64,000 nt of DNA from a bacterium (GTDB taxonomy: Bacteria > Electryoneota > RPQS01 > DYHQ01). Each line of letters opens with the position of its first letter. The stretch's first letter is position 1. The notes beneath the pieces are model-generated. The model worked only from the letters and a program-made list of their open reading frames with translations, ran no database searches and was not told the origin of the DNA. Where the stretch lies: positions 124,001-188,000 of the forward strand of contig JAUXGA010000001.1 of assembly GCA_030622545.1 (NCBI GenBank), read 5' to 3'. Both the position numbers and the translations under genes were made by a program. Shown here in pieces: positions 27,475 through 33,656 of this stretch.

Positions 27475-27531
27475 TAAATTATGAGCACAAAGCCCCACTT
27501 CACGTGAGGCCTTAAGTTATTGATTATATTG

Positions 27532-27618
27532 CGGAGAGAGTGGGATTCGAACCCACGGTACGGTTGCCCGCACGCACGCCTTCCAAGCGTGTGCCTTCGA
27601 CCACTCGGCCATCTCTCC
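27532..27618 (-). tRNA. tRNA-Ser(GGA), intact; right attachment site
   Basis: It is 87 nt on the minus strand: 7-bp acceptor stem GGAGAGA/TCTCTCC, discriminator G, anticodon GGA in CTTGGAAG, long class-II variable arm and a TTCGAAT T-loop. CCA is not encoded. It is the intact partner of the fragment at 6218. The track ORF beginning MERWPSGRRHTLG is a translation of this tRNA. Confidence 0.96.
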
Positions 27619-28057: not shown

Positions 28058-28062
28058 ATTAG

Positions 28063-28150
28063 CGGAGAGGGAGGGATTCGAACCCCCGGTACGAACAAGT
28101 CGTACAACGGCTTTCGAGGCCGCCGCATTCGACCACTCTGCCACCTCTCC
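28063..28150 (-). tRNA. tRNA-Ser(CGA)
   Basis: It is 88 nt on the minus strand with acceptor GGAGAGG/CCTCTCC, discriminator G, anticodon CGA in CCTCGAAAG, a long variable arm and a TTCGAAT T-loop. CCA is not encoded. The track ORF beginning MERWQSGRMRR is its translation. Confidence 0.95.
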
Positions 28151-30129: not shown

Positions 30130-30462
30130 CTATACAGTAATCACGCTATCCGATTCGGTCAGGTAGGTGACGATTTCCTGCATATTGCTTTTGCGGCCAA
30201 CGGCGATTTTATCATCCAACTTGAAATGTCCGATGCACGTGCCGCAGCCGATAAGTTCGACTCCTGACGCGGCGAGTTCCTCCAGCTCGAACAACACCGG
30301 CGAGCCTTCCACTAACAGTTTCACTCCCGCGTTATAAAAAATGATTCGAGCCGGTTTCTTCTCCGCGATGAGCAGCTTTCGCAGGAAAGGTGCCATCAAT
30401 TTCTTGCCGAGTTCATCATCGCCATGTCCGAGTGTTTCGCTGTGAATGACAATCGTTTTCAC
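30130..30462 (-). CDS. DsrE/YedF-type sulfur or selenium relay protein
   Basis: The GTG at 30462 follows GGAAGGAAAT; the track start lies inside tadA. The 110 residues match the C-terminal domain of YedF-type proteins: GHGDDELGKKLMAPFLRKL, FYNAGVKLLVEGS, ELIGCGTCIGHF and VGRKSNMQEIV. YedF normally has an N-terminal TusA domain, absent here. The CGTC cysteines could carry persulfide or selenium. The start overlaps no other gene but sits 5 nt after the tadA stop, so the two are cotranscribed, linking it loosely to tRNA modification. Confidence 0.83.
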   Translation of the reverse strand: MKTIVIHSETLGHGDDELGKKLMAPFLRKLLIAEKKPARIIFYNAGVKLLVEGSPVLFELEELAASGVELIGCGTCIGHFKLDDKIAVGRKSNMQEIVTYLTESDSVITV

Positions 30463-30467
30463 GTGTG

Positions 30468-30965
30468 TTAATTTCCTTCCGTCTTGCGGACTTTGCGGAA
30501 GAACGCGCTGAGTTTCTGCGATGCTTCGTCCGCCATCACGCCGGGAATCACCTCGCACCGGTGATTCAGTCGTTCATCTTCCAAAATGCGAAAAAGGGAG
30601 CCGGAAGCTCCCGCTTTGGGGTCCATCGCGCCGAAAACCACGACGGGAATTCTCGCCAGCACTATCGCGCCCGCGCACATCGGACACGGTTCGAGCGTGA
30701 CATACAGCACGCAGTCTTCGAGCCTGCGGCTGCCGAGGCTGGCCGCCGCCGCCGAAATCGCAATCATCTCGGCGTGGGCGGTGGGCTCCTGAAGAGTTTC
30801 GGTCTGATTGTGGCCTCGCCCGATAACGGACAGGCCGTGCACGACCACACAACCAATCGGCACCTCGCCGACGGCTTCGGCTTTTTCGGCTTCGGCGAGG
30901 GCTTCTCGCATCCAGCGTTCGTGGCTGCCGAAGAGAATTTCCGGTGGCGGGGTGCCGTTTTCCAT
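30468..30965 (-). CDS. tadA: tRNA-specific adenosine deaminase TadA
   Basis: TadA converts the wobble adenosine of tRNA-Arg(ACG) to inosine. The zinc/catalytic motifs HAEMIA (His and the proton-shuttling Glu) and PCPMCAG are intact, and the start region [16 protein letters not shown] aligns with Escherichia coli TadA. The ATG at 30965 is the only good start; the track ORF runs on through the tRNA. The protein is 165 residues, normal. The ATG lies 2 nt beyond the discriminator base of tRNA-Arg(ACG), its own substrate, with no ribosome site in between. Cotranscription and processing would leave a nearly leaderless mRNA (inference). Confidence 0.95.
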
Positions 30966-30966
30966 G

Positions 30967-31040
30967 TACGCCCGAAGGGATTCGAACCCCCAACCTTCTG
31001 GTCCGTAGCCAGACGCTCTATCCAGTTGAGCTACGGGCGC
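30967..31040 (-). tRNA. tRNA-Arg(ACG)
   Basis: It is 74 nt on the minus strand: acceptor GCGCCCG/CGGGCGT (one G-U pair), D-arm AGCTCAACTGGATAGAGC, anticodon loop CTACGGA with ACG, T-loop TTCGAAT, discriminator A. CCA is not encoded. A strong promoter precedes it and tadA follows immediately. Confidence 0.95.
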
Positions 31041-31056
31041 ATTTTTACGAACTTTA

Positions 31057-31085
31057 AATATACAAGAATTTCTTGTCATAGTCAA
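31057..31085 (-). promoter_or_regulatory. Promoter of tRNA-Arg(ACG)-tadA
   Basis: On the minus strand TTGACT, a 17-nt spacer and TATATT lie 16 nt before the tRNA 5' end. The spacer contains the perfect palindrome CAAGAA-A-TTCTTG, a possible operator or chance. Confidence 0.8.
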
Positions 31086-31204: not shown

Positions 31205-31240
31205 TTTAAGCTTATAATGAAAACTATCCTGAGGAGTCCC

Positions 31241-32317
31241 ATGCGTAAATCATTCCTATGTCTTTTCGCTCTGCTAACGATGACGTTCATAGCCCACGCC
31301 GAGCAACTCCAGAGTTCGGCGAGCGCCGACAGCGTGCCACCTGAAAGCACGGCTGCTGTTCAGGCGCAACCGGACAGTCAGATGACCGAAACCCACGGCG
31401 GGGCAGGCGCGGAAATACAGATGAAACCGGTTGAAAAGAAGCCGCTGGGTTTGGCCGATTTCCTATTCACCGGCAAATATCTCGCATTTCTGATTCTGAT
31501 GATTGTCGGTTTGGTGCTGTTGCTCACTCGCAAGGTGAATCTCTGGATTCGAATCGGCGTGATGGCGGTCGCGTTCGTGTTGTTTGGATTGGATTACATT
31601 TTCCCGCTGCATCCCAGCCCGATGTGTGCTTTAACGAAATTCTTCATGTTCAAATTCACGTGGGGTAAATTCTTCCCGGCGTTCACCGCGGTTGTGCTGG
31701 CGATGTTCATCCCGAGTCTCATCGGAAGAAAACTTTTCTGCGGCTGGGTTTGCCCGTTAGGTGCGCTTCAAGAGTTGGTCAATAAGATTCCTTTTAAATT
31801 CCGCTGGAAACAGTTCAATTTCACTGCTTTCAATTCAGTTCGGATGTCGCTCTTGGTGATGTTCATCCTGACGTTTTTCATGGCGCAAGAGCAAATACGA
31901 ATGCTCGCCGAAAGGGTGGACGCTGATTTTTCAAGCCGCATGTGGACCGCGTTTTCGGCGTATAATCTCTATGATCCGGTCAATTTTTTCGAGCTTCTGC
32001 ACTGGCATATCGACACGCTTTTTGTTATCATGTTTGCAGTTTTGATTATCTCGAGCCTGATTCTGTACCGGCCGTTCTGCTACCTTATCTGTCCCATTGG
32101 CGCGTTGACGTGGCTCTTTGAAATAATCGCACCGGGAAGAGTTCGCGTTGATCATAAAGTTTGCACGAAATGTCTGGAATGCGTTGACGCCAGTCCCTGT
32201 CCGACCATCGCGAAACTCGTCGATGAGAAAACGAAGTTCGCACCCGACTGCACTTCCTGCGGCGAATGTCTGAATGTCTGCAAGGAGAACGCGATTAAAT
32301 TCAGTTTCAAGCGCTGA
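31241..32317 (+). CDS. NapH/YccM-like membrane protein with two 4Fe-4S clusters
   Basis: The ATG at 31241 follows GAGGAG; the track start is 24 nt earlier. The 358 residues have a signal-like first helix ([17 protein letters not shown]), a periplasmic Ala/Ser/Pro-rich stretch, then membrane helices from about residue 75. Two CxxxCP motifs, [12 protein letters not shown] and [11 protein letters not shown], flank the central helices as in NapH/NosR-type proteins. The C-terminus carries two ferredoxin-type motifs ([14 protein letters not shown] and [12 protein letters not shown]). Such proteins pass electrons from the quinol pool or flavins. It is the first gene before the RDase-like protein and is a likely electron donor to it. 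Confidence 0.88.
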
Positions 32318-32333
32318 TTAGATCCGAGAATCA

Positions 32334-33656
32334 ATGAATTTTATTCAACTGATCTCCTTGCCTGTTGGAGGGATGGTAATAGGTTTCGTCGGTTTGTTCG
32401 CCATCAGCGCCATCCGCGAGAAAAAGCCCCGGGCAGTCTTGATCAGTATCGCTGGATTCCTGGTGCTCAGCATTGCATGGTTAGCGGTATACGTTTTCAA
32501 CTCACCGACCGATAATGTTTTGATTATTCCTTTGTTGGTCGCGGTTCTTTTTATATTACTCTTCTATTTGCCGAGTGGAGCCCGAAAATCCTTGCGCATA
32601 GATGACAATGGCGAGAGAGTCGACGAGCGCGATGTGATTTTCGCGCGCGAAGAATATCTTCCCGGCACCGAGAAGTATGAGAAATACTATGCGATGCATC
32701 CGGAATTTAAGGCAATCGATGACAGGATCCGAGCATTACCAAGTTTTTTAAAACCAGGCGGGCGTTACTATGACTCGTCTCGTTCTCAACACATTAAATC
32801 AGCATTTAAAATACTCGAGGATTTCGCTCGCACTGTCGACGGGAATGTGAGTTCAGACCGAATTCAAGTTGAATCTGCCGAGATGACGTTGAAAGTTAAG
32901 GAGTGGGTTCGACGAATGGGCGCGGGTGACGTCGGCATCGCCGAACTGAAATCACGCTATATCTATTCTCACGTTGGCCGCGGACCTGAATCTTGGGGCG
33001 CGCCGATTGAAAACAACCATCGGTTCGCTGTTGTTTTTGCTCTTGAGATGGATTATAATTCGGTTCGAGTTGCACCGAGACTCCCTATTACAGAAGAGAC
33101 AGTGTTGCAGTACTTCCGGGGAGCTCAAATATCAACTTTCTTGGCGCACCAGATTAGAACGTGGGGTTATTCGGCGCGCGCTCACGTTGCTAACAGCAAT
33201 TATCAGATCATGCTTCCTCCGGTAGCGCACGATGCTGGACTCGGAGAACTTGGGCGATTCGGCTTTCTGATTTCACCCAGATTCGGCGCCAGAATTCGCT
33301 TGGGCGCTGTGACAACCGATCTACCGCTCATACCGGATAAACCGATTACGTTTGGCGTTCAGGATTTTTGTGAGAAATGCTCAAAATGCGCAACGAATTG
33401 TCCCGCTGGCGCCATTGAAAAGGGAAACAAGGTACTGGTTCGCGGCGTGGAGAAGTGGAAACTGAATGTAGAGAAATGTCTTATGCATTGGCGAATACTT
33501 GGCACGGATTGCGGTTTGTGCATGAGGGTTTGCCCATTCAGCCATCCTCCAACGTTTGTGCATAACATAGTACGTACCAGCCTTCGTCACTCTTCATTTG
33601 CGCGTACTGTTTCTGTGTACGGTGATGATCTTTTTTATGGTCAGAAATTATCGTAA
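32334..33656 (+). CDS. Reductive-dehalogenase-like corrinoid/Fe-S protein with N-terminal membrane anchor
   Basis: Residues about 1-80 form two to three membrane helices. The rest resembles the catalytic part of reductive dehalogenases and QueG: ending HDAGLGELGRFGFLISP, RIRLGAVTTDLPLIPD, then CEKCSKCATNCPAGAI and CGLCMRVCPFSHP, two 4Fe-4S motifs. These folds bind cobalamin without a DxHxxG motif. Classical RdhA has a Tat signal and a separate RdhB anchor; here the anchor is fused and no Tat motif is seen, so the domain probably faces the cytoplasm. Dehalogenation is not proven. It follows the NapH-like gene by 16 nt, a possible electron-transfer pair. Confidence 0.85.
   Translation: MNFIQLISLPVGGMVIGFVGLFAISAIREKKPRAVLISIAGFLVLSIAWLAVYVFNSPTDNVLIIPLLVAVLFILLFYLPSGARKSLRIDDNGERVDERDVIFAREEYLPGTEKYEKYYAMHPEFKAIDDRIRALPSFLKPGGRYYDSSRSQHIKSAFKILEDFARTVDGNVSSDRIQVESAEMTLKVKEWVRRMGAGDVGIAELKSRYIYSHVGRGPESWGAPIENNHRFAVVFALEMDYNSVRVAPRLPITEETVLQYFRGAQISTFLAHQIRTWGYSARAHVANSNYQIMLPPVAHDAGLGELGRFGFLISPRFGARIRLGAVTTDLPLIPDKPITFGVQDFCEKCSKCATNCPAGAIEKGNKVLVRGVEKWKLNVEKCLMHWRILGTDCGLCMRVCPFSHPPTFVHNIVRTSLRHSSFARTVSVYGDDLFYGQKLS

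Follow-up and report, generated by a model that had tools for sequence, protein, structure and literature searches.

In a 64,000-nucleotide stretch of bacterial DNA (hereafter the window), the gene of tRNA-Arg(ACG) runs up to the start codon of tadA, the gene of the deaminase having this tRNA as its substrate, with one single base left between them. Taken as a whole, the proposal that both genes form one unit under the tRNA promoter, that tRNA 3' maturation frees a near-leaderless tadA mRNA and that this message is translated in leaderless fashion appears to us about equally likely to hold or to fail. The tRNA was called by Infernal on the minus strand at 31040..30967 (Rfam RF00005, 65.6 bits, E 1.1e-12), with the A at 30967 as discriminator, while the ARAGORN call extends to 30966, the encoded C74 being included. 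This C (30966, minus strand) is the sole base separating the discriminator from the tadA ATG (30965-30963), and the positions given in an initial annotation made from the sequence are thereby confirmed; that annotation also took CCA as not encoded, which is correct for the triplet and for C75-A76 but not for C74. The tadA open reading frame (ORF; 30468..30965, minus strand, 165 aa) starts where the mature tRNA 3' end falls, its ATG beginning at tRNA position 75. Past the other tRNA genes of this genome (44 in all), no long ORF starts within 10 nt, and the next-closest one lies 11 nt beyond an encoded CCA. The same ACATG junction is present in G001, a member of a second genus (TadA 86% identical) and the only other genome of the family that was compared; the two assemblies agree on the junction, which is therefore not an assembly error. 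Chance adjacency of the two genes is not a reasonable reading.

Regarding the identity of the protein, the ORF passes the curated NCBIfam equivalog NF008113 (169.6 bits, cut-off 150), matches PF14437 and PF00383, and exhibits the zinc-binding deaminase motifs HAE and PCxxC of TadA, namely as THAEM and EPCPMCAG. Deamination of A34 in tRNA-Arg(ACG) is an established activity of the TadA family and is predicted for this member. From the tRNA to the conserved SHERWM segment ((S/D)HxRWM), the ATG at 30965 is the sole in-frame ATG, GTG or TTG; it provides a 13-residue N-terminal extension, of a length close to that of relatives, and the N-terminus in G001 (MQNGTLPSEILFG) shows no indel relative to TadA of the window. 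An extension of the reading frame through the tRNA to a TTG at 31085 was rejected, as it begins in the -35 region and open frames running through tRNA genes are of the usual spurious kind. A ribosome-binding site ahead of tadA, reported initially as lacking, is indeed impossible since the acceptor strand of the tRNA occupies the place. A start codon further downstream with a ribosome site, named at the outset as contrary evidence, was not found in frame before the SHERW segment. When 300 genes of this genome were surveyed, with starts taken simply as the first ATG, Shine-Dalgarno (SD)-like sites preceded about 37% of them against 12% of internal ATGs; the missing SD at tadA is thus unremarkable in itself, whereas the missing of any leader is odd. 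The 16S match of this genome ends near a contig end, short of a readable anti-SD.

Upstream of the tRNA, the initial annotation had placed a promoter, TTGACT-17-TATATT, and this candidate sigma-70-type element (31057..31085, minus strand), with 10/12 consensus matches and 16 nt from its end at 31057 to the tRNA, is the sole promoter found. No consensus promoter was detected by consensus scans within the tRNA gene or between it and tadA, i.e., nothing resembling the separate tadA promoter that would have spoken for independent expression. The identical two hexamers with a 17-nt spacer precede tRNA-Arg in G001, and a TTGAC-type promoter is present before the tRNA in 9/9 linked genomes of the order (the window genome, G001 and seven further ones in which the element is similar). 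On the sequence, tRNA-Arg(ACG) and tadA are likely co-transcribed from the tRNA promoter; a one-promoter transcript and a near-leaderless product, as first put forward, would both fit the sequence and G001. Separate expression of tadA, either from a promoter hidden inside the tRNA gene or from a start at the ATT of codon 10 or at Met19, seems very unlikely. While codon 10 does have a GGA just upstream, ATT starts are very rare and relatives start at about the same N-terminal length; a start at Met19 would forfeit the conserved SHERW segment, and the hidden promoter finds no consensus match to stand on.

The 3' end of the tRNA follows a rule of the genome. With the register of each tRNA set by acceptor pairing, which matches Infernal for the four tRNAs of the window, each of the 44 tRNA genes read in this genome encodes C74, whereas the full CCA is present in just 7, and among the 37 genes devoid of CCA position 75 is a C in 2. 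In the order sample, C74 is found in 142/142 tRNAs and full CCA in 36, and the 12 tRNAs sampled from other families of the phylum all encode C74. The feature is not a general one, several tRNAs of Planctomycetes and Poribacteria having a T or an A at this position. Three Bacteroidota tRNAs, from two loci, likewise encode C74 and mostly not C75-A76. The universality of C74 suggests an end point of the tRNA after this base, and the genome harbours one nucleotidyltransferase gene. Alternatively, C74 may mark where exonuclease trimming halts, or may help RNase P to recognise the tRNA 3' end.

As for the nuclease, RNase Z (TIGR02651) gave no match above cut-off in 39 genomes of the phylum, and the Thermotoga-type RNase Z (TIGR02650) gave nothing convincing, with no match above cut-off in the order. 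The best TIGR02651 matches in the window genome reach 26 and 23 bits versus a cut-off of 293, and these two candidates were rejected as other, distant MBL-fold proteins. In other families of the phylum, most genomes encode a somewhat more RNase Z-like protein, scoring up to 113 bits. With no recognisable RNase Z in the order, a cut directly after the discriminator is left without a known enzyme here. The initial annotation had proposed precisely this cut, yielding a message that starts C-AUG; the universally encoded C74 suggests instead a message starting with AUG, although the near-leaderless character would be retained either way. In Propionibacterium acnes, without obvious RNase Z, an unidentified endonuclease cuts some tRNA precursors between both Cs (PMC3848588), and Streptomyces coelicolor likewise cuts tRNA between the two Cs of CCA (PMC4681348). 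By analogy with P. acnes, the cut could conceivably be made by an enzyme other than RNase Z. The likeness to both organisms lies in the end point after C74 and in a nucleotidyltransferase able to complete the end, and P. acnes additionally shares the missing RNase Z with the order of the window (PMC3848588); the difference is that the cut was mapped there by RNA-seq on CCA-encoding tRNAs, whereas here it is deduced from C74 in genes lacking C75-A76. Neither for C74-only tRNA genes nor for bacterial leaderless mRNAs made by tRNA processing was a direct precedent found in the literature beyond these papers on P. acnes and S. coelicolor.

The same lack of RNase Z in the order also fits another course of events, in which a downstream cut followed by exonuclease trimming to C74 would destroy the tadA start, so that each transcript would give either a tRNA or a message, the latter arising from uncut transcript or by another route. 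Such trimming is known for some tRNAs of E. coli and P. acnes (PMC4681348, PMC3848588), and the universal C74 could mark a trimming stop rather than a cut site. The uncut transcript, however, would offer ribosomes no leader, leaving tadA devoid of an obvious route to translation, and we regard such mutually exclusive products as quite unlikely.

Returning to release of the message by tRNA maturation, the steps that we infer, i.e., joint transcription, the cut with its exact position, leaderless initiation and any regulatory value, would follow one another in this way. The tRNA and tadA would be transcribed as a single unit from the tRNA promoter; before its release, the tRNA would fold into an acceptor stem that stops just before the AUG and leaves no leader for ribosome loading; tRNA 3' maturation would then cut between C74 and A75 (possibly after the discriminator instead), upon which nucleotidyltransferase would complete the freed tRNA by adding CA (or CCA). 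The released mRNA would start with AUG if cut after C74, or with C-AUG if cut after the discriminator, and leaderless initiation on it would make TadA, one substrate tRNA being born with each enzyme message. Folding predictions keep the acceptor stem paired right up to the AUG and leave ~16 nt at the 5' end of the leaderless mRNA mostly unpaired; an unpaired 5' end favours leaderless initiation. No excess of -10 boxes at leaderless distance was found among 214 operon-first genes of this genome, which gives no sign that leaderless translation is widespread in it. The fullest version of the proposal would be a bacterial tRNA punctuation with built-in feedback, in which, in a lineage lacking RNase Z and having mostly C74-only tRNA genes, a nuclease cutting after C74 frees a perfectly leaderless tadA mRNA and thereby couples enzyme synthesis one-to-one to substrate maturation; this version is in our opinion unlikely.

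How far the arrangement extends was considered across the order. Nine of the 10 genomes with a readable upstream region have tRNA-Arg(ACG) upstream of and co-oriented with tadA, one genome (G005) being the exception; three further genomes were left out owing to contig ends or the lack of a full tadA match. From discriminator to candidate start, the gap is 1 nt in both the window genome and G001, 2 nt in G002, which belongs to the second family of the order and reads A-CA-ATGATG at the junction, and 30-78 nt in the other six. The comparison of spacing in related genomes, suggested as a check from the beginning, thus upholds the junction in G001 but not a zero gap throughout the order; strict coupling is therefore no general requirement, and since most members of the order have longer gaps, expression of tadA does not depend on the zero gap. 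In four of the longer-gap genomes, GGATGAA-type repeats adjoin the tRNA end, and these repeats after tRNA-Arg may be insertions. Across several sister-family genera, GGATGAA heptamer repeats make up much of the longer tRNA-tadA gap, and similar repeats occur at two further loci. A further point against release of the message by tRNA maturation is a hairpin-T sequence, read by eye only, that follows the tRNA in one genome of another family (G023).

Linkage of the two genes also reaches beyond the phylum. Two Poribacteria show the gene order Ser-Ser-Arg(ACG)-tadA-Ser-Ala-Ser, in which 23-24 nt separate tRNA-Arg from a TTG start, and in two genomes of Firmicutes type a comparable cluster has tRNA-Arg(CCT) intervening between tRNA-Arg(ACG) and tadA; within the phylum, one family has tRNA-Ser genes directly after tadA at loci L097-L101. 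The window itself has tRNA-Ser(CGA) at 28062..28150 and tRNA-Ser(GGA) at 27531..27618 (ARAGORN, coordinates with C74), both on the same strand as tadA and ~2-3 kb 3' of it. As judged from gene order, the tRNA-Arg/tadA linkage is an old, ordinary synteny, and its special part is the zero gap, a local refinement.

These same observations nourish a rival account, namely inherited synteny plus compaction, according to which the gap shrank by drift and some near-leaderless message suffices, with no regulatory coupling. The nearby tRNA-Arg(ACG) in the two Poribacteria, its position one tRNA away from tadA in the two Firmicutes-type genomes, the tRNA-Ser(CGA)/(GGA) genes that lie downstream elsewhere and are both retained in the window, and the range from 1 to 78 nt within a single order are all in its favour; moreover, as far as the RNA goes it agrees with the preferred explanation, from which it departs solely in rejecting a regulatory value. 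It is less at ease with near-zero gaps in both families of the order and with a junction kept exactly across two genera despite a diverged tRNA 5' flank, even if the sequence on either side of that junction is under constraint in any case. Altogether, we view compaction devoid of regulation as possible but doubtful.

Among known systems, the arrangement set out above, with tadA message released by tRNA maturation, is best compared with the tRNA punctuation of mitochondria, where excision of tRNAs by RNase P and RNase Z frees leaderless or near-leaderless mRNAs. The likeness is that a tRNA directly abuts an ORF and that its excision would leave a leader of 0-1 nt. The differences are that tRNA-Arg/tadA is bacterial and concerns one gene under the unit's own promoter, that no RNase Z was recognised, that the tRNA is itself modified by the product of the adjoining gene, and that the cutting is here a proposed one. 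Bacterial tRNA-mRNA polycistrons exist as well, tRNA-tufB being one; to our knowledge, it has an ordinary spacer and ribosome-binding site, as does secG-leuU, in contrast to tRNA-Arg/tadA, which is without spacer. Like tRNA-Arg/tadA with its putative joint transcript, both combine a tRNA and a protein gene on one RNA, secG-leuU of E. coli being cited as such a polycistron in PMC3985628. In Bacillus subtilis, yaaJ is the tadA orthologue and is followed by scr-dnaX (PMC10454642), and a tRNA-Arg(ACG) gene is not reported to adjoin its start codon. While tRNA-mRNA dicistrons are already known, the zero-gap tRNA-Arg/tadA variant is new and resembles mitochondrial tRNA punctuation.

If tRNA maturation really makes the tadA message, bacteria would offer an instance of tRNA punctuation as known from mitochondria, and a modifying enzyme would be matched to its substrate in a simple way. 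A C74 that is always encoded, C75-A76 that usually are not and the failure to recognise an RNase Z together point to a tRNA 3' route by another nuclease; this combination is a more general lead than the tRNA-Arg/tadA junction, which itself would be a clean substrate for seeking the 3' maturation nuclease.

Some further observations concern the surroundings of tadA. The tRNA-Ser/tRNA-Arg/tadA/tRNA-Ser cluster, whole or partial, was seen in several phyla, at five loci besides L097-L101. Directly 3' of tadA in the window lies a YedF-like gene of the DsrE family (30130..30462, minus strand; TIGR03527, 123.3 bits, cut-off 110), which is not obvious at the corresponding place in G001. On the plus strand, the neighbouring pair at 31217-33656 consists of a gene for a NapH-like ferredoxin membrane protein and one for a putative protein of the reductive dehalogenase subfamily, the latter protein barely exceeding its cut-off (TIGR02486, 162.5 bits versus 160.35).
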